Assembly (NCBI GenBank): GCA_009911175.1
Contig: QXWX01000148.1
Span: 1 to 12,291, forward strand
DNA: 12,291 nucleotides
Direction: 5' to 3'
Source: Lachnospiraceae bacterium
GTDB lineage: Bacteria; Bacillota_A; Clostridia; Lachnospirales; Lachnospiraceae
In this document: piece by piece, positions 4,923 to 12,291 of the stretch
How positions within the stretch are numbered: position 1 is the first letter of the stretch
Layout of the letters: every line of letters begins with the position of its first letter
Translations under genes and position numbers: made by a program
The notes under the pieces: generated by a model
What the model was told of the DNA's origin: nothing
Database searches by the model: none
Seen by the model: only the letters and a program-made list of their open reading frames with translations

Positions 4923-5696
4923 ATGAAAAATAAAAAAGTGCTGATTATTATCGGCGTGGTAGCATTGCTTGTTGTTGGAGGGGTCGGCGGCTTCTTAGCT
5001 TTTAACCGCAAGGGTGTTAACAGTTCTAACTCCACACAGGAGTATGCGGAGACGGCCGGTAAGGCCTATGATGAAGCTAAGGAGAAAAACGTTACAGAAG
5101 CTGATGATCCATATGATACGAAAGTAGATTTCGAAGGACTGCAGGCAACGAATAAGGATGTTTATGCTTGGATAAGGATTCCAGGAACGAATATTGATTA
5201 TCCGATTTTGCAGAACGCTGATGAGGCAGATGACTATTACCTGAATCGGACGATGGATGGTCAGACAGGATTGCCAGGTTCTATCTATACTGAAAAGTAT
5301 AATACAACAGGTTTTACAGATCCGGTTACAGTGATTTACGGACATACTTTACATGATGGAACAATGTTCAGTGAGTTGAAGAAGTATAAGGATAAAGAAT
5401 TCTTTGACGAGAACAGAGATATTTATATTCAGCTTCCGGGAGGAAGAAAGAAATATCAGATATTTGCGGCGGTAGCATTTGATGACCGTTATCTGATGAG
5501 TACTTATGCTTTTACATATGATGAAGATTTTAACAAGTATATTTCAGAATTGAAAGCGTGCATGGAAGGTAATGTGGATGAAAGTATAGATGTTAAATTT
5601 GGAGATAAAATCATCACATTGTCAACGTGTATCGACGAGTATCCGGATCAGCGCTGGCTTGTAAATGCCGTGTTGGTCGATGAAGAATGGTATTAA
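4923..5696 (+). CDS. srtB: Class B sortase
   Basis: This membrane-anchored cysteine transpeptidase cuts sorting motifs in secreted proteins and joins them to cell-wall peptide. It has an N-terminal membrane anchor (about residues 5-27), then a soluble catalytic domain. The catalytic His is H141 in VIYGHTLHDGTMF, the Cys is C236 in TLSTC, and the Arg is R244 in DQRWLV. The extra N-terminal helix region, the length of 257 and the YAWIRIPGTNIDYPI strand are typical of class B. GTGAGG lies about 9 nt before the ATG. The gene lies 32 nt after the LCP gene and 63 nt before an SPKTG-motif protein. Clostridioides difficile SrtB is known to use (S/P)PXTG motifs, so the downstream protein is its likely substrate by family analogy and position. 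Confidence 0.95.
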   Translation: MKNKKVLIIIGVVALLVVGGVGGFLAFNRKGVNSSNSTQEYAETAGKAYDEAKEKNVTEADDPYDTKVDFEGLQATNKDVYAWIRIPGTNIDYPILQNADEADDYYLNRTMDGQTGLPGSIYTEKYNTTGFTDPVTVIYGHTLHDGTMFSELKKYKDKEFFDENRDIYIQLPGGRKKYQIFAAVAFDDRYLMSTYAFTYDEDFNKYISELKACMEGNVDESIDVKFGDKIITLSTCIDEYPDQRWLVNAVLVDEEWY

Positions 5697-5715
5697 AACT
5701 CTTTCAGGGTTTTAA
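5693..5715 (+). terminator. Weak terminator-like hairpin overlapping the sortase stop codon
   Basis: TTAAAACTC (5693-5701) pairs with GGGTTTTAA (5707-5715), a nine-base-pair stem with one G-U pair and a 5-nt loop, followed by TATATAATC. It could partly reduce read-through from the sortase into cassette A or protect a processed mRNA end. It is weak in G/C, so strong termination is doubtful. Confidence 0.4.
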
Positions 5716-5721
5716 TATATA

Positions 5722-5737
5722 ATCACACAAAATAATG
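5722..5737. repeat. 16-bp motif, copy 1 of 3 (inverted/direct) around cassette A
   Basis: ATCACACAAAATAATG sits just before cassette A. Its reverse complement occurs after cassette A at 6591-6606 (15 of 16 bases), and a same-orientation copy lies at 6949-6964 (15 of 16). Gene A is therefore bracketed by inverted copies, and the block from A to the middle of the inverted repeat by direct copies. Confidence 0.6.
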
Positions 5738-5759
5738 AAGTTCAGGAGGAAACAGTAAA

Positions 5760-6518
5760 ATGATTAAATTAAAGAAGATTGTTGCGGTCGCTCTGACAGC
5801 AGCAATGTGCTTAGGATTAAGCATGACAGCTTTTGCAGCTAAGAATACAGGATATACTAAGGATGATCTTTGGAGCCCAGATATGCTTAAACAGCAGGGA
5901 CCTGGATCAGATGACTTTGGTTTTATTCCGGCTACTGATGCAGATGGTAACATCATTGATGGTTATTACAATTCTTTCATCAGCGCAAAAGATGCTAAGG
6001 GCCATAGAGTAGATATTTCATGGAGAGAACTTAGTGCTAAGACATTAAAGTCTATCGATGAAGAAGGAAAAGTTGCGGATATCTTCAAGAAAAATGGTTA
6101 TGAAGTACCGGATGATACAGATTTCATTCCGTTGTTAAATGGTAATATTACATTTGATGAAGGTGTACCGGCTGGTGGCGGCACAGTAACTTTCCAGTTA
6201 GCAGATTTAGGCGTTAGCTCTGAAGGTGTTCAGCCTGGCGATACAGTTTATGTAATGCAGGAAACAGCTCCAGGATCTGGTGTATGGGAAGTTTATGCAG
6301 CTACAGTTGGACAGGGTAATGATATCGTAGTTACTCTTCCGCGTAATGGATCTATCGTTCTTGTTAAGACTTTATCTGATGGAACTGTTATTACTTTAGA
6401 CAGAACTACTGGTGAAGTTGTTGATCGTAAGCCTGCAGATAATGTAGCTAACAACAATGCAAAGGGTACTTCCACAAACGCTAGTGGAGCAACTTCTCCG
6501 AAGACAGGTGAATTTTAA
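5760..6518 (+). CDS. Secreted SPKTG-motif surface protein, cassette A
   Basis: This predicted exported protein of 252 residues is the likely substrate of the adjacent sortase B. A signal peptide (residues 1 to about 26, cleavage near AFA|A) precedes a mature region with an N-terminal acidic part. A beta-rich part follows (about 130-215, with VTFQLADLG, APGSGVWEVYAATVG and DRTTGEVVDRKPADN), then an Asn/Thr/Ser linker and the C-terminal SPKTGEF. The sorting-type motif SPKTG is followed by only two residues; the usual hydrophobic segment and basic tail are absent, and no read-through frame supplies them. A strong site AGGAGGA (5744-5750) precedes the ATG. It is about 55% identical by eye to cassette B, with near-identical DNA at the signal peptide and 3' end. 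Function is unknown; adhesion or immune interaction is only a guess. Confidence 0.85.
   Translation: MIKLKKIVAVALTAAMCLGLSMTAFAAKNTGYTKDDLWSPDMLKQQGPGSDDFGFIPATDADGNIIDGYYNSFISAKDAKGHRVDISWRELSAKTLKSIDEEGKVADIFKKNGYEVPDDTDFIPLLNGNITFDEGVPAGGGTVTFQLADLGVSSEGVQPGDTVYVMQETAPGSGVWEVYAATVGQGNDIVVTLPRNGSIVLVKTLSDGTVITLDRTTGEVVDRKPADNVANNNAKGTSTNASGATSPKTGEF
5771..5840 (+). repeat. Conserved signal-peptide DNA block, copy in cassette A
   Basis: These 70 bases match the reverse complement of 7719-7788 (cassette B) at 69 of 70 positions, while the mature coding DNA nearby has diverged strongly. The first 15 bases recur at the window end (12277-12291). Such DNA-level conservation exceeds what protein function needs and points to recent duplication or gene conversion. 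Confidence 0.85.
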
Positions 6519-6566
6519 TTCATCCTATTGGGATAAGTGAAAGAAATAAGAAACACTTAAATTTAT

Positions 6567-6599
6567 AAAATAATGTAATTTCATAATATACGTTATTTT
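6567..6599. terminator. AT-rich bidirectional hairpin after cassette A
   Basis: AAAATAATGTA (6567-6577) pairs with TACGTTATTTT (6589-6599), 11 bp with one G-U pair and an 11-nt loop. It is flanked by A's and T's as in a bidirectional terminator, but has very little G/C. The same structure occurs in inverted orientation at 6956-6989. Confidence 0.45.
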
Positions 6600-6616
6600 G
6601 TGTGATAGGTAGTTTG

Positions 6617-6651
6617 AGAACCGTCTTTCTGGTAGTTTGAAAGACGGTTCT
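6617..6651 (+). terminator. Strong hairpin terminator of cassette A
   Basis: AGAACCGTCTTTC (6617-6629) pairs perfectly with GAAAGACGGTTCT (6639-6651) around a 9-nt loop. It lies about 100 nt after the stop of cassette A and ends the probable LCP-sortase-substrate operon. The T-run after it is short (TTGCATTATTTATT), so efficiency is uncertain. Confidence 0.65.
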
Positions 6652-6899
6652 TGCATTATTTATTCCTCTAATTTAAAATAAATGTCAATCAGAAATATAA
6701 GTATCAAATAAGTATCACGCAAATTTGTTTATTTTGAACAATAATTCTTATATTTTATATATTTCTTTGTTCAAATATACCATTTTCAATTAAATAACTT
6801 AGTAAAATCATCTTGCTAATTAGTTTAGATTTTGTGATAAAATTCTATTGATGTGGGAGATTAATTGTCAATTGGTAAGGAAGTAATGGCATTAAAATT

Positions 6900-6991
6900 A
6901 CAAGAACCGCCTTTCTAACTATCTGGAAAGACGGTTCTTAAAGTACCTATCACACAAAATAACGTATATTATTGAAATTACATTATTTTAT
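6900..6991. repeat. Long inverted repeat, right arm
   Basis: This is the inverted partner of 6565-6653. The arms are about 250 bp apart and could support a cruciform, inversion, or recombination between cassettes A and B. Confidence 0.85.
6902..6939 (-). terminator. Strong hairpin terminator of cassette B
   Basis: On the minus strand AAGAACCGTCTTTC pairs with GAAAGGCGGTTCTT, a 14-bp stem with one G-U pair and a 10-nt loop, about 100 nt past the cassette B stop. It is a diverged copy of the hairpin after cassette A. Confidence 0.65.
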
Positions 6992-7037
6992 TAATTTGAA
7001 TGTTTCTTACTTTTTTGCCTTATCCTTAGCGGACAAA

Positions 7038-7823
7038 TTAGAATTCACCTGTCTTCGGAGAAGTTGCTCCACTCGGATTTGTGGAAGTGCTTGTTCCAGC
7101 ATTATTGTTTGCTACATTATCTGCAGGCTTACGATCAATAACTTCACCAGTAGTTCTGTTTATTGTTACTACAGTGCCATCCTGTAATGTTTTGCAAAGA
7201 ACAAATGCACCATTGCGTGGTACAGTGAAGGTAACATCATTGTTCGGTCCAACTGTAGCAACATATACTTCCCATACACCAGAACCTGGTGCTGTCTGCT
7301 GCATAAGGTACGTGGTATCTCCTGGCTTTAAGCCTTCAGCGGCAGCGCCTAAATCAGCCAGCTGGAAAGTCACAACGCCGCCACCCTCAGGCACACCATA
7401 CTTGAAATTGATATCACCATCAAGTACTGGAATTATATCAATCTTAGTTTCATCAAAATCAAAGCCATTATCTTTGTAAATATTAATAACTTTCTCTTCC
7501 GTAAGAGACTCCCGTACGCCTTGGCTTAACTCTCTGAACGATGTATCCACCCGATTACCTTTTGCATCACGGGCTAAAATATAAGCATTTGTGTACCCTG
7601 TGAGATTACCAAACTCATCATAATCCGGAACAAAATGCATGTTTGAATTGCCATTTGGTCCGATCTGCTTAATATGGTCAGGACTCCAAAGATTTTCTTT
7701 GCTATATGACGTACCTGTAGCTGCGAAAGCTGTCATGCTTAATCCTAAGCACATTGCTGCTGTCAGAGCGACCGCAACAATCTTCTTTGATGATTTAGTG
7801 CCTTTCGAAGGCATAAATTTCAC
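7038..7823 (-). CDS. Secreted SPKTG-motif surface protein, cassette B
   Basis: This is a paralogue of cassette A in opposite orientation, 261 residues from a GTG at 7821-7823, or 258 from the ATG at 7812-7814. Neither start has a clear ribosome binding site, unlike cassette A. The ATG start aligns with the leader of the third copy. The signal peptide spans roughly residues 14-36 (IVAVALTAAMCLGLSMTAFA). The mature domain shares the beta-rich VTFQLADLG, APGSGVWEVYVATVG and RTTGEVIDRKPADN stretches with A, but the first half is much more diverged. It too ends in SPKTGEF immediately before the stop, with no membrane tail. It has its own hairpin terminator downstream. The poor start region raises the possibility that it is a weakly expressed or donor copy. 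Confidence 0.8.
   Translation of the reverse strand: MKFMPSKGTKSSKKIVAVALTAAMCLGLSMTAFAATGTSYSKENLWSPDHIKQIGPNGNSNMHFVPDYDEFGNLTGYTNAYILARDAKGNRVDTSFRELSQGVRESLTEEKVINIYKDNGFDFDETKIDIIPVLDGDINFKYGVPEGGGVVTFQLADLGAAAEGLKPGDTTYLMQQTAPGSGVWEVYVATVGPNNDVTFTVPRNGAFVLCKTLQDGTVVTINRTTGEVIDRKPADNVANNNAGTSTSTNPSGATSPKTGEF
7719..7788 (-). repeat. Conserved signal-peptide DNA block, copy in cassette B
   Basis: This block matches 5771-5840 in reverse complement at 69 of 70 bases. Directly upstream (7774-7798 on the minus strand) it is identical over 25 bases to the window end (12267-12291). Confidence 0.85.
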
Positions 7824-7887
7824 TACACAATGGCATCCATTTTCTCGTCAAAATCGACATCAATTCTTGAAAAGTCTACTGCCTATA

Positions 7888-7897
7888 TAGTATACTA
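7888..7897. promoter_or_regulatory. TAGTATACTA palindrome upstream of cassette B
   Basis: A perfect 10-bp palindrome lies about 75 bp before the cassette B start and contains TATACT, a plausible -10 box on the minus strand, though no good -35 is spaced from it. The same palindrome, preceded by TT, occurs at 12159-12168 about 100 bp before the third copy. It therefore belongs to a shared leader and may be a promoter element or operator. Confidence 0.5.
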
Positions 7898-7916
7898 AAA
7901 GTATTCCAAAAATAAA

Positions 7917-7945
7917 TGGAAATCCGAGAAATCTTTGTATATTAT
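7917..7945 (+). promoter_or_regulatory. Candidate promoter of the ATPase/nuclease gene at 7997
   Basis: TGGAAA (7917-7922), a 17-bp spacer and TATTAT (7940-7945) give four and five matches to the housekeeping consensus boxes. It is divergent from cassette B and would start near 7952, leaving a leader of about 45 nt. Confidence 0.4.
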
Positions 7946-7996
7946 ATTCGAAGCAGAAGCATAATTACACTGTTTCTGGAAAAGGGAGCATAGCAT

Positions 7997-9580
7997 ATGG
8001 GAAGATTTTTAAATCCGGATAGCAGCGCCTTTCAGGTTGCACTGAATTCGGAGATTTATGTTGACAAGACTGGTCTGCTTGAATATACGAACAGAGTACT
8101 GGATACGAACCAGGCACTGATATGCAACAGCAGACCGCGGCGTTTTGGCAAATCAATTACTGCCAATATGCTGACTGCATATTATAGCAAAGGCTGTGAT
8201 TCCGAGCAGATGTTCGCTGAAAGGATCATTGGGAGCAGCAAGTTTTTCAGACATCATCTGAATCAATATGATGTGATTCATTTTGATGTACAATGGTGCT
8301 TATCTCCGGCAAAGTCTGTCAATACAGTCGTATCTTATATTGAAACCAACATTATACAAGAGTTAGAGAATGCATTTCCTGATATAGATCTTCAATCTGC
8401 AGAATCTTTAGCAGAGGCATTATCCTATATCAACAGTACAACGGGCAGAAAATTTATTATTATCATAGACGAATGGGATGTCCTGATTCGTGACGAGGCT
8501 GCCAATATCTCGATACAGGAGGAATATATCAATTTTCTACGCGGGCTGTTCAAAGGAACAGAACCAACAAAATTTCTTCATCTTGCATATTTAACCGGGA
8601 TTTTGCCGATCAAAAAATTGAAGACTCAGTCTGCGCTGAACAATTTTGATGAGTTCACGATGCTGAATGCCAGCATACTTGCTCCATATGTTGGATTTAC
8701 AAAAGAGGAAGTACGAGCGCTTTGTAAAAAATATAACCGTGATTTTGAAGAAACGGTACACTGGTATGACGGATATTTGCTCTCAGAGTGTCACGTATAT
8801 AATCCAAAGGCCGTTGTGAGTGCATTGATACGAGGTGACTTTCAGAGCTATTGGTCGCAGACCGGTACCTATGAATCAATCCTTCCATTGATAAATATGG
8901 ATTTTGACGGACTGAAAACCGCTGTCCTTGAAATGATTGCCGGTGAAGCGGTCAAGGTTAAGACCATTTCCTATCAGAATGATATGGTCACATTTAAAAA
9001 TAAGGATGATGTGCTTACTTTACTGATTCATCTGGGATATTTTGCTTATGACGAGAAAAATAAAACAGCATTTGTTCCCAATGAAGAGATCAGGAGTGAG
9101 CTTATAGATGCGGTAGAAGATACTCAATGGAATGAGTTTGAAGAACTGCGGTATCAGTCGGATGAACTGCTCCGTGCGACTTTGGATCGGGATTGTGCTG
9201 CCGTTGCGGAAACAATAGAAGAAATCCATTCCGGATATGCCTCTGCGATCGCTTATAACAATGAAAATTCATTGAGCAGTGTGCTGAGTATTGCATATCT
9301 TGGCGCAATGCGGTATTATTTCAAACCGATCCGCGAATTACCCACAGGGCGGGGATTTGCAGATCTGGTATTTCTTCCGAAAAGAGAATATCCGGATATT
9401 CCGGCGCTGATTGTGGAACTCAAATGGAATCAATCCGCCGAAACAGCGATTCAGCAGATAAGAGAGAAAAAATATGTCGCTTCCGTGGAGAATTATACTG
9501 GTGATATTTTATTTGTTGGGATAAACTATAGTAAAAAAAACAAAGAGCATACATGTATGATCAAGAAATTTAATAAATAA
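7997..9580 (+). CDS. AAA-ATPase-like protein with C-terminal PD-(D/E)XK nuclease domain
   Basis: This protein of 527 residues has the layout of the family usually annotated as AAA-ATPase-like (formerly DUF1703-type) proteins, common in Clostridia and Bacteroidetes and mostly of unknown role. The N-terminal P-loop SRPRRFGKS (about 45-53) is followed by Walker B FIIIIDEWD (D158, E159). The middle has the family-style HWYDGYLL. The C-terminal nuclease-like core is GFADLVFL (D456) then LIVELKW (E474, K476), matching the D...ExK pattern. It is therefore probably a cytosolic NTPase coupled to a nuclease fold. AAGGGAG precedes the ATG by about 10 nt. It is divergent from cassette B and stands upstream of an XRE regulator. 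Defence or mobile-element function is possible but unproven. Confidence 0.88.
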   Translation: MGRFLNPDSSAFQVALNSEIYVDKTGLLEYTNRVLDTNQALICNSRPRRFGKSITANMLTAYYSKGCDSEQMFAERIIGSSKFFRHHLNQYDVIHFDVQWCLSPAKSVNTVVSYIETNIIQELENAFPDIDLQSAESLAEALSYINSTTGRKFIIIIDEWDVLIRDEAANISIQEEYINFLRGLFKGTEPTKFLHLAYLTGILPIKKLKTQSALNNFDEFTMLNASILAPYVGFTKEEVRALCKKYNRDFEETVHWYDGYLLSECHVYNPKAVVSALIRGDFQSYWSQTGTYESILPLINMDFDGLKTAVLEMIAGEAVKVKTISYQNDMVTFKNKDDVLTLLIHLGYFAYDEKNKTAFVPNEEIRSELIDAVEDTQWNEFEELRYQSDELLRATLDRDCAAVAETIEEIHSGYASAIAYNNENSLSSVLSIAYLGAMRYYFKPIRELPTGRGFADLVFLPKREYPDIPALIVELKWNQSAETAIQQIREKKYVASVENYTGDILFVGINYSKKNKEHTCMIKKFNK

Positions 9581-9628
9581 GGGTTCAAGTGATTGATCAA
9601 ATGTAGAATTGTTGTTTCGAAATAAACG

Positions 9629-9644
9629 TCGCATATTATTGCGA
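9629..9644. other. Small hairpin after the ATPase/nuclease gene
   Basis: TCGCA (9629-9633) and TGCGA (9640-9644) form a 5-bp stem with a 6-nt loop, followed by TTTAAATTAATTCT. It may be a weak terminator about 50 nt after the stop at 9580. Confidence 0.25.
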
Positions 9645-9695
9645 TTTAAATTAATTCTCTGTTTTGTAGCATATGCCTCCGAAGCTGATAATAAA

Positions 9696-9704
9696 TGTTA
9701 TAAT
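9696..9704 (+). promoter_or_regulatory. Extended -10 promoter of the XRE gene
   Basis: TGTTATAAT contains a perfect TATAAT (9699-9704) with the TGn extension. No good -35 lies at the expected spacing, as is usual for extended -10 promoters. Start would be near 9711, about 67 nt before the ATG. Confidence 0.5.
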
Positions 9705-9777
9705 CAAAGAAAGTATTTACATTTTTAGACATTTATTCAAAAAATTCGGGACCATCCCCTTACTATGGAGGTGTGCT

Positions 9778-10182
9778 ATGGCGAATATACAGCTTGCGTA
9801 CAATTTAAAAAGATATCGGAAAGCTTACAATTATACCCAGCAGAAATTAGCTGACAAAATCAGTATCTCCAGACAAGCATATTCCAATTATGAAATCGGA
9901 AAACGGGTACCTGATCTGGATTTGCTGGCAAAGCTGTGTGATGTGTATTCCATTACATTAGATGAACTTGTACGACAGCCGTACGCCCCCGCAGAGTGTA
10001 AAGACCCAAAAGCTGTTTATCATATTTGCTACAGACATAACATGAAGGATATTCTTTATCTGACGGATAAAGAGATTGAATTTGTGTTGGAATACCGTGG
10101 AGCAGAATGGGAAAAACAGTATCTGATCGCATATGTGCTGGATATGATGAACAGGCAGGACAGGGAATCACATCTGCGATGA
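9778..10182 (+). CDS. XRE-family helix-turn-helix regulator
   Basis: This small protein of 134 residues is a likely DNA-binding transcription regulator. The N-terminal 65 residues form the Cro/CI-type fold: LAYNLKRYRKAYNYTQQKLA, then ISRQAYSNYEIGKRVPDLDL with the recognition helix, then LAKLCDVYSITLDELV. The rest (about 70-134) has no recognised domain; YLTDKEIEFVLEYRGAEWEK looks helical and may mediate dimerisation. The ATG at 9778 is chosen over upstream starts because GGAGGTG (9767-9773) lies just before it and the HTH begins right after. A longer frame from 9673 has no support. Its last codons form the first unit of a 40-bp tandem repeat. It may control itself or the flanking ATPase/nuclease genes, but no operator was identified. 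Confidence 0.88.
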   Translation: MANIQLAYNLKRYRKAYNYTQQKLADKISISRQAYSNYEIGKRVPDLDLLAKLCDVYSITLDELVRQPYAPAECKDPKAVYHICYRHNMKDILYLTDKEIEFVLEYRGAEWEKQYLIAYVLDMMNRQDRESHLR

Positions 10183-10300
10183 ATTAATAAACAGGCAGGA
10201 TTGAGGGTTACATATTCGCTGAATTAATGAACAGGCAGGATAGATGCTCACATACATACTGAATTGATAAGCAGGCAGGACAGATGATATCTGCCTGCTT
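10141..10300 (+). repeat. Four 40-bp imperfect tandem repeats
   Basis: Units begin at 10141, 10181, 10221 and 10261. Each starts GAATTAAT-like (GATATGAT in the first) and carries ACAGGCAGGA, or GCAGGCAGGA in the last, at exactly the same offset (10151, 10191, 10231, 10271). The second halves of the units differ more. Unit 1 encodes the XRE C-terminus; units 2-4 lie after the stop. The period is not a multiple of three, so the extra units are not in-frame repeats. Confidence 0.9.
10269..10300. terminator. Bidirectional hairpin terminator between convergent genes
   Basis: AAGCAGGCAG (10269-10278) pairs perfectly with CTGCCTGCTT (10291-10300) around a 12-nt loop. It is built from the last tandem unit and sits between the XRE stop and the stop of the minus-strand ATPase gene at 10315, so it can serve both. 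Confidence 0.65.
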
Positions 10301-10314
10301 GCTGTTTCAAGTAG

Positions 10315-11931
10315 TTACACGACTGCTTCAATAATATGTTTATCACCGACAGTCCGATCAAACACTCCGGTTTCCTTTTTCTTGTTAAAGTTAAAACTCA
10401 GCATATAGCCTGTCTGCTTATGATAAATATCCAGATACTCCGCAAGCTGTGCTTCTCCCCGTTCATGATACTCTTTTCCGTGCCACAACTTCATTTCGAT
10501 TATAAATTGTTCTCCTCTGTAATCCACGATTACATCTGTCCGCTTTTTATCTCTTGTCTCTGATTCAATGTAATAATTCCCTGTACCATTAATAATCGGC
10601 CTGAGATACAGCAGGAAAAATCTTCTTCCATAGTCCTCAATAAATTTTTTGTCCTTGTCCCCATATAATTCCTGAAAATGAATTACAAACTTTTCGAGGA
10701 TTCTTCTTACATTAAGATGTCCATCTATCAGAAAGCCATTTTTATCCAAAAAAGAGGCCTGTGTAATATTATTTTCTTTCCACTCTTCTGAAGTTAAAAA
10801 TCTGTTATACAGGCGTGTTTCAAAAATACGGTTTGAGATCACAATTGTGGCTCCGTCACGCTTTGCAAAACCGAACATAATTGCGATATCGATTTCTTCC
10901 AGATCCGGATTATATAGAATCTTGTCCCCATTAAACAGCAGTTTACTGAGCACACGCTCTAATTCCGGATAAGATTCCAGCTTGTGATTTAGAGAATCAA
11001 ACAACGTATTTTTTTCCAGCAAAAGTATTCTGACTGCTGCAAGAAAACCTTCTTTGGTCCAGACTTCGGAAGAATTTTTGAATGCTGATGTTCCTGGAAG
11101 CTCCTCGTCCATGATTTTACATAAACGGCACACAAGAAAAGGATATCCGGATGTCTCGTCAAAGATCAGACCTGCTATCTGGTCAACGTTCATTCCGGTA
11201 TGTTCATCGGATTCATATTCCTGCAGCATCCCGGCGATCTCTTCCTTTGAAAAACTCATATCTACTTTAAAATCTACAGCAATATTCCAGGGACTGTTCA
11301 TCTTGTGAACTTCTTCCGGGCGCAGCTTCCTCTTCAGATTTTTTACGTCATACACACCTGCTAATATAACAGAATGAAAAGTTTTGGTTCCCTTCCGTTC
11401 TCTTTGAAGATAATAATTTCGTAATTGTGAAAGAAAATCTAAAAACACCTGATTATTTGACGCTGTGTCAACTTCATCAATCATTAGAACAATCGGCTTA
11501 ACAGAATGCTTACATATAGTCATCAAATATTGGAAAAGCTGCATCAGATAAAATGTTTCCTGCTGTTTCACAGCGTCTTCCAGTTCTTTTACCGCATGTT
11601 TGAGCGGTTCTGGGGTGTCTTTATACGCTGTATGAAACTCCTCTAAAAAGCAGCCGGCAAATGCGCGAGAAAATGAATTTTCATTTTCATACATCTCACT
11701 CCCTATACTCTGAAAATCCAGGAATATAACAGTATATTCATTTCTCAGATAAATCGCCAGAGCTGTCAGAGTTGTTGTTTTTCCATATTGCCGTGCACGG
11801 TTTACAGCAAAGTAGTTTCCTTTTTCTATCATCTTTCTCATCTGTTCCAGACGGCTGTTTAAGTTGATCATATAGTGCTTTTTAGGTACGCATAAGCCCG
11901 TAATATTAAATTCTCTTCTCATCAATTGCAT
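10315..11931 (-). CDS. AAA-family ATPase with C-terminal PD-(D/E)XK-like domain
   Basis: This protein of 538 residues from the first ATG also combines an NTPase and a nuclease-like domain, but it is clearly different in sequence from the one at 7997. Its P-loop is NRARQYGKTTT (K51, T52) and its Walker B is IVLMIDEVD (D152, E153). LRNYYLQRER and SVILAGVYDV resemble the sensor region of the same ATPase class. The C-terminal core has TDVIVDYRGEQFIIEMKLW with D466 and E479-x-K481, followed by EAQLAEYLDIYHKQ. The ATG at 11922 (the fourth residue) is better spaced from AAGGG than the one at 11931, so the true protein may be 535 residues. It is convergent with the XRE gene. Biological role is unknown; an accessory or defence-type role is an inference from domain type and setting. 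Confidence 0.85.
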   Translation of the reverse strand: MQLMRREFNITGLCVPKKHYMINLNSRLEQMRKMIEKGNYFAVNRARQYGKTTTLTALAIYLRNEYTVIFLDFQSIGSEMYENENSFSRAFAGCFLEEFHTAYKDTPEPLKHAVKELEDAVKQQETFYLMQLFQYLMTICKHSVKPIVLMIDEVDTASNNQVFLDFLSQLRNYYLQRERKGTKTFHSVILAGVYDVKNLKRKLRPEEVHKMNSPWNIAVDFKVDMSFSKEEIAGMLQEYESDEHTGMNVDQIAGLIFDETSGYPFLVCRLCKIMDEELPGTSAFKNSSEVWTKEGFLAAVRILLLEKNTLFDSLNHKLESYPELERVLSKLLFNGDKILYNPDLEEIDIAIMFGFAKRDGATIVISNRIFETRLYNRFLTSEEWKENNITQASFLDKNGFLIDGHLNVRRILEKFVIHFQELYGDKDKKFIEDYGRRFFLLYLRPIINGTGNYYIESETRDKKRTDVIVDYRGEQFIIEMKLWHGKEYHERGEAQLAEYLDIYHKQTGYMLSFNFNKKKETGVFDRTVGDKHIIEAVV

Positions 11932-12249
11932 TACCCTTCTAAATAGTTGATAAACGGTTGAAAGGTTGTTTTTTTCTAAACATACGGAGGGATTTCTGTG
12001 CTTGTTGCATAGAGATATTCAACTTGCATTACATTTTTTTAATATCGTTTTTGGGAATTTCAAAATGATATCCTACCTCAACAATACCCTTGGCTTCACT
12101 GTCTCATGCAATCTTATCAAATATTATGCACATACTCACCTTTTCTAGTTTATGTGTTTAGTATACTAATAAATTGCGGCAATTTCAAGATTAGGCAGAA
12201 AATTTGAGAAGAAAACGAGGTGACTTTTGCGGTAATATACGACAAATAT
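11932..12249. other. 318-bp gap before the third cassette copy
   Basis: The left part holds no gene I can support. A short TTG-started frame (11966-12148) and a GTG four-codon frame after GGAGGG at 11986 look accidental. The right part (from 12159) resembles the leader of cassette B, including TAGTATACTA, TTTCAAGA-like and GAGAAAA-like words. Confidence 0.6.
12159..12185 (+). promoter_or_regulatory. TAGTATACTA box plus operator-like palindrome upstream of the third copy
   Basis: TAGTATACTA (12159-12168) is identical to the box upstream of cassette B. Three bases after it, AAATTGC-G-GCAATTT (12171-12185) is a perfect 7+7 inverted repeat. If TATACT is a -10 box, the palindrome covers the transcription start, a classic repressor position. 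Cassette B lacks this second palindrome. Confidence 0.4.
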
Positions 12250-12291
12250 ATGCCTGAAAAAAGGCGCTAAATCATCAAAGAAGATTGTTGC
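12250..12291 (+). pseudogene. Start of a third SPKTG-type cassette (T), truncated by the window and apparently frameshifted
   Basis: The final 25 bases (12267-12291) are identical to the cassette B signal-peptide start, and the preceding ATGCC...AAAGGC-CTAAATC bases also align with it. Relative to B there is one extra base in an A-run (12257-12262). As a result the ATG at 12250 runs into TAA at 12268-12270 after six codons, while the conserved frame (AKSSKKIV) has no ATG, GTG or TTG after the upstream TAA at 12233. The copy therefore looks untranslatable from its own start, unless an unusual start, slippage or a downstream start is used. The rest lies outside the window. Confidence 0.55.

Follow-up and report, generated by a model that had tools for sequence, protein, structure and literature searches.

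The best-known surface loci with combinatorial switching of gene bodies are those of mycoplasmas, Campylobacter fetus and Bacteroides. Here we consider a stretch of 12,291 nucleotides from a Lachnospiraceae bacterium (contig QXWX01000148.1; this whole stretch is called the window), which carries a family of genes for predicted secreted proteins beside a class B sortase gene. The window takes in one truncated end of a larger system, quite probably a multi-site invertible array (shufflon) that swaps whole gene bodies behind fixed 5' leaders.

In the sap system of C. fetus, inversion relates one promoter to silent homologues with conserved 5' ends; the process is RecA-dependent and the conserved 5' regions are long, whereas our locus has a 15-bp core and an adjacent integrase. 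The slpA and slpB genes of Lactobacillus acidophilus are two in number and encode S-layer proteins. A chromosomal inversion there changes the surface-protein gene that is expressed (PMC5893755), as an inversion would in the present locus, likewise of a Gram-positive bacterium. In the Mycoplasma Vsa, Vsp and Vpma systems, each gene of a clustered family carries the same short site at its 5' end, a tyrosine recombinase gene adjoins the locus, and inversions bring silent genes behind a single promoter (PMC2268961). Our locus shares the clustered family, the identical 5' site in both orientations and the tyrosine recombinase beside the array, but differs in its Lachnospiraceae host, in its secreted proteins with a class B sortase as neighbour, in the position of the site inside signal-peptide codons, in its tail-to-tail cassette pairs and in the AAA/PDDEXK cargo between its leaders. 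Its recombinase is an integrase of phage type (phrog_1) that has an arm-binding and a SAM-like domain, in the place that Xer1, Mbr or HvsR takes in those systems. By analogy the array would work like Vsa and Vpma; membership is not claimed, because the recombinases were not compared directly and the proteins match no known family.

In the R64 shufflon, several inversion sites with an adjacent recombinase gene give many arrangements, Rci choosing among alternative C-terminal segments of PilV at sfx sites of 31 nucleotides with a 7-bp core (PMC11852207, where the sap S-layer system is also named in passing). Several sites, an adjacent recombinase gene and many arrangements are found here too, but what stays fixed is confined to the very 5' end, with no more than some 4-22 codons ahead of KK, and whole bodies would move; an sfx-like site architecture was not identified, no systematic search for one having been made. 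Clostridioides difficile, also of the Clostridia, has invertible switches operated by the tyrosine recombinase RecV, with a cell-surface gene among the targets (PMC5903667); RecV switches the expression of adjacent genes, whereas here bodies are exchanged.

The core site and the arrangement of the array

The unit of the array would be a body, consisting of a signal peptide, a variable domain and a tail ending in SPKTGEF, that starts at a 15-bp core, AAAGAAGATTGTTGC, which encodes KKIVA near the start of the signal peptide. This core is present three times in the window, for a chance expectation of 0.01 at up to one mismatch. By scanning GTDB species genomes, we obtained six distinct loci, among them L001, on a 6.35-Mb contig (title quiver_pilon) of Schaedlerella arabinosiphila DSM 106076, and L002, on a 29-kb contig of a metagenome-assembled genome (MAG) of the window's own species. 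The core is identical in all 11 copies with DNA (three in the window, six in L001, two in L002), and the bases flanking it vary with the leader on one side and with the body on the other.

In L001, six copies of the family lie between the sortase and a tyrosine recombinase of 349 amino acids, in the orientations + - + - + -. Their cores start at 2331+, 6239-, 10006+, 12018-, 16417+ and 18436-, in strict alternation over a span of 16.1 kb, and a genome-wide count of the pattern AAAGAAGATTGTTGCNGTNGC gives six, all within the array and three on each strand, against none for the reversed control. As the core alternates in orientation, recombination of any + core with any - core would invert the intervening DNA and swap the bodies behind two fixed leaders. 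The comparisons of loci and database entries together make variation by inversion at the core well supported.

The order in L002 is recombinase, leader with copy M1, a transglutaminase-like protein, copy M2, then leader-AAA1-HTH-AAA2 as in the window and the contig end, with M1 and M2 the two copies in the sequenced part of the locus. It matches the window at 96.7% over window positions 7722-10177 (a block of 2456 columns, beside copy B) and at 96.8% over 10245-11240. The AAA1-HTH-AAA2 block, between leaders LB and LT, has in L001 the opposite orientation relative to the sortase from that in the window. A further locus, L006 (genome G003, of the same genus), has a single copy between the sortase and a gene that we take to be yicC-like; its leader encodes MINL, its core agrees at 14 of 15 bases, and its region also contains a similar HTH gene, with no AAA genes and no integrase among open frames of at least 120 amino acids.

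The window begins its part of this arrangement with an LCP gene and the class B sortase, followed by copies A and B tail to tail, and holds these two copies and the 5' end of a third, T:

4923-5696, + strand: class B sortase, directly 5' of the expression-site copy (TIGR03064, 172.6 bits against a cut-off of 153.75)
5697-5770, + strand: leader L1, probable expression site, with TATAAT at 5718-5723, AGGAGG at 5744-5749 and ATG at 5760; encodes MIKL
5760-6518, + strand: copy A, secreted protein of 252 amino acids with signal peptide, domain and tail with SPKTGEF end
5771-5785, + strand: core site 1, AAAGAAGATTGTTGC, in copy A
6618-6650, + strand: terminator-like hairpin GAACCGTCTTTC...GAAAGACGGTTC, 3' of copy A
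6904-6937, - strand: hairpin 3' of copy B, counterpart of the A hairpin
7038-7823, - strand: copy B, 261 amino acids, tail to tail with copy A, without a good ribosome binding site
7774-7788, - strand: core site 2, AAAGAAGATTGTTGC, in copy B
7789-7898, - strand: leader LB, of the MKFMPSKGTKSS type; its counterpart in L002 precedes a different body
7997-9580, + strand: AAA1, AAA-ATPase_like and PDDEXK_9, cargo between leaders LB and LT
9778-10182, + strand: HTH_3 protein, cargo; a similar gene lies 3' of the single-copy gene in L006
10315-11931, - strand: AAA2, AAA_35/PDDEXK-type protein, cargo
12159-12276, + strand: leader LT, without an in-frame start codon
12277-12291, + strand: core site 3, AAAGAAGATTGTTGC; the window ends with its last base

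A preliminary description, made from the window alone, had already recognised A, B and the 5' end of T, with 69 of 70 bases shared by A and B at the signal peptide, and our alignment confirms this figure over 5771-5840 (over 5768-5840 there are two mismatches in 73, at 5770 and 5834). Copy T is a 5' end only, 97% identical to B over 32 bases (12260-12291) up to the window end. As proteins, A and B are 66% identical. The sliding 50-column identity of their DNA is 0.94-0.98 across the signal peptide, 0.44-0.66 at about 5844-6187 in the mature N-terminal half, 0.60-0.90 later in the gene and 0.82-0.96 downstream of it (6535-6657), in agreement with the diverged N-terminal halves, similar 3' ends and similar downstream block of that description. 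An inverted repeat of 47 nucleotides lies behind A and B (6583-6629/6926-6972, 96% alike).

Exchange of bodies between leaders

Leader LB is equal in the window and in L002 at 120 of 130 bases 5' of the core and is followed by different bodies, B in the one and M2, of another family, in the other; the two agree up to the last base of the core and then show seven mismatches in the next 13 bases. In L001, it is the sortase-side leader that has a body of the M2 kind. In the protein database, where each entry stands for one sequence, body A is also found behind the integrase-side leader type (P0001), that of M1 behind MIKL (P0003) and that of M2 behind the integrase-side leader type (P0041), and P0044 equals P0046 over all 240 residues after their leaders, MIKL and MEVRKYDAARGGGFCITS respectively. 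Ten entries have one body, at most two of 234 residues off P0008, with five leader classes that resemble the site leaders of L001. When bodies were grouped at 97% or more mature identity with at least two members, seven of the eight groups were found with more than one leader class, a proportion inflated by the clustering of the database at 90%, which conceals bodies repeated behind the same leader; only one class is found in the eighth group (P0005 and L001 copy S6). Pairs with the same body and different leaders have an identical signal peptide in 42 of 43 cases (37 of these from one group), pairs with the same leader class and different bodies in 137 of 706. The signal peptide thus travels with the body and not with the leader, which places the exchange point in or next to the KKIVA codons.

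What had first been proposed from the window, variation with a single well-equipped leader for expression and other copies without a good start, is borne out by the related loci. Bodies are not fixed and orthologous at each position, since the window and L002, of one species, differ in the body behind LB. The segment exchange proposed at that time concerned the middle of the gene between conserved ends and has to be amended, the whole body 3' of the core being what would move by inversion; an exchange of a smaller segment is possibly seen in P0007, which equals the P0008 body except for a short patch in the 3' half, with 11 differing residues at post-leader positions 124-144, that reads like the P0002 body family and may reflect gene conversion or an assembly chimera.

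Leaders and expression

The sortase-side leader is likely the main expression site, because AGGAGG and ATG are conserved there and a good start is absent at several others; with its promoter-like box, AGGAGG and MIKL, it would express whichever body lies behind it. In the window, L001 and the single-copy L006 alike, AGGAGG is located 10 nucleotides 5' of the ATG, with TATAAT upstream. In a scan for Shine-Dalgarno (SD) sequences, copy B has a match of 4 nucleotides at best, and T has no in-frame ATG, GTG or TTG among the 14 codons open 5' of its core, so that A alone is well equipped, as had been noticed earlier. Of the L001 leaders, S2 and S3 lack a start codon and S4 lacks an SD match, and in L002 neither M1 nor M2 has an SD match of more than 4 nucleotides, the integrase-side leader included. 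Such leaders without a good start would store silent bodies. A second expression site may exist beside the integrase in L001. The sequence AGTATACT lies 5' of leaders LB, LT, S5 and M2 (window 7889-7896 and 12160-12167; L001 16310-16317; L002 14021-14028) and, within the window, L001 and L002, is confined to these four places.

The recombinase

The enzyme that likely catalyses inversion at the core, judging from its position and relatives, is a phage-type tyrosine integrase. Its gene stands at the array's far end, beyond the end of the window, both in S. arabinosiphila and in the conspecific MAG (L001 18507-19556, L002 8758-9942; 97% identical). From its stop to the nearest core there are 70 bp in L001 and 69 bp in L002. 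It has Phage_integrase, SAM-like (Phage_int_SAM_3) and arm-binding (Arm-DNA-bind_4) domains, its top match is the phrog_1 phage integrase family (260.8 bits), and it scores far under the cut-offs of the XerA, XerC and XerD models. Of the catalytic residues of tyrosine recombinases (R, K, H, R, H/W, Y), as assigned by eye, R (GLRCGE), K (SPKTTNSIR), HDIRHSH and Y (NIYGH) appear to be present, with D (IGDTVD) at the H/W position. Among 12 genomes of the genus, integrase relatives of 96.6-100% occur in two, exactly those with the core-bearing array, and four have only relatives of 47-51%; of 397 genomes drawn from the family, two pass E 1e-120, namely G001 itself and one at 51% identity. Relatives in the protein database are at 97, 87, 86, 78% and downwards (best 120 of 233 matches).

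Two distant integrases, L051 and L061, end about 90 bp from a tRNA-Leu gene and beside the 3' end of a probable elongation factor Tu gene (read by eye), respectively; element integrases adjoin attachment sites in this manner. Family members P0053 and P0054 and a 53% integrase, P0205, are each listed with a longest contig of 9455 bases and possibly belong to another array with its own integrase. Genome G402, one of the four with only 47-51% integrase relatives, encodes two divergent family members about 4 kb apart (C8:138837-139388, - strand, and 143180-143740, + strand; E 1.4e-14 and 1.0e-9); the core is absent from this pair and the integrase sits on a different contig.

Alternative explanations

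Several observations weigh against an integrase-driven shufflon. All the exchange comparisons span strains, species or database entries, with no within-clone or read-level case among them, many entries derive from short contigs of metagenomes, in which repeats could give chimeras, and L002 is itself from a MAG. Body B has its closest database relative at 64% and was not seen behind another leader, and P0042 shares the body of L001 copy 1 but has a different signal peptide. The integrase, with its arm-binding domain, resembles an ordinary element integrase, and relatives of 66-87% exist among the best 120 of its 233 database matches. Leaders S5 and S6 of L001 carry good SD sequences, so that more than one body may be made. 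Finally, after the 13 bases mentioned above, B and M2 share an identical run of 18 bases, which together with the near-identity of A and B means that homology for ordinary recombination exists. We infer from the sequences that switching within a clone may be ongoing, with one body made at a time and surface variation as its purpose.

That homology is the basis of the first alternative, in which RecA-type recombination acts between inverted, near-identical signal-peptide and 3' regions and the integrase is a bystander. It would account for the 69 of 70 equal bases of A and B, for the nearly equal signal-peptide DNA of five of the six L001 copies and, as a trace of the sort that gene conversion leaves, for the patch of another body family in P0007; but M2 stands behind leader LB even though seven of the 13 bases after the core differ from B, signal-peptide variants move with the body in 42 of 43 pairs (again, 37 from one group), and the core-bearing array and the close integrase occur in the same two of 12 genomes, so that we regard this explanation as unlikely. 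That the genes simply duplicated and diverged, with strains rearranged on rare occasions and without any programmed switching, appears highly improbable to us: duplicated surface genes with diverged middles are common and L006 offers a single-copy, ancestor-like locus without integrase, but strict alternation, an exact core, varied bodies behind the same leader within a species and one near-identical body with five leader classes are not what such a history would give, since alternation, exact core and reshuffled bodies need repeated recombination at one point. Still less credible is that the repeated signal peptide led assemblies to produce the leader-body joins of the database as chimeras. 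Many entries are on contigs of a few kb, and the window breaks off right at a core, as expected of an assembly at a branch point, but some joins are found on several or long contigs (P0008 on nine, the longest of 108577 bases; P0015 on five, 46661; P0020 on two, 211303), the 6.35-Mb contig of L001 carries six such joins, and LB is joined to the L002 body within a 29-kb contig.

The encoded proteins

The secreted proteins of the array are probably surface-associated. In its structure model, copy A has a folded region at residues 33-207 followed by a disordered tail ending in SPKTGEF, and no convincing structural or family relative was found for it. In all 39 aligned proteins SP.TGE is invariant, the C-termini being SPKTGEF, SPVTGEF or SPKTGE, and none of the 39 has a hydrophobic stretch or charged tail after the motif. 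The C. difficile SrtB motif is (S/P)PXTG, and SPKTGEF, in a family that adjoins a class B sortase, resembles a site of this class; as the hydrophobic tail that would hold the proteins in the membrane is missing, they may or may not be attached. The neighbouring transglutaminase-like protein of L001 and L002 does have SPKTG followed by a hydrophobic, charged tail. Its gene, with SPKTGD before that tail, lies inside the array between two copies (L001 3287-5134, L002 11170-12975), beside the sortase-side copy in L001 and between the integrase-side and LB copies in L002.

Origin and significance

The core peptide is present in 14 of the 17 distant family members P0059-P0075, all 14 with the leader MIKL or MINL. 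In the simplest history the core would be older than the array, and an element integrase able to use it would later have made one gene into an invertible set. We put forward more tentatively, as somewhat short of an even chance, that the array is a domesticated integrative element, of which an integrase with its att core in the first codons of a single-copy sortase-linked gene was kept, gene and core were duplicated in alternating orientation, integration became a combinatorial surface switch, and the integrase-adjacent leader derives from the int-att arm of the element. The array would thereby suggest a route from mobile-element integrase to antigen-switching enzyme, with the single-copy relative as the picture before it. 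It offers a compact candidate switching locus in the Lachnospiraceae, in a gut commensal anaerobe, and as strain DSM 106076 is deposited, a role against host antibodies, phages or competitors is directly testable. Short-read assemblies and catalogues clustered at 90% can misrepresent such loci, and the window itself ends on a core.

Other features of the loci

The cargo between leaders (window 7997-9580 and 10315-11931; L001 6652-8208 and 8465-9937) comprises AAA-ATPase/PDDEXK proteins and a Schlafen/AlbA_2 protein; PADLOC gave no match for the AAA cargo proteins. A larger paralogue with a similar domain, in an open frame of 417-425 amino acids, is found at G001:C1:5935963-5936463, G002:C43:18413-19069 and G003:C8:121623-122255, and the core is absent from these loci (L003-L005). 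Where the HTH gene ends and beyond it, window positions 10147-10280 contain a direct repeat of 54 nucleotides, present three times at a spacing of 40 nucleotides and 76-80% alike.

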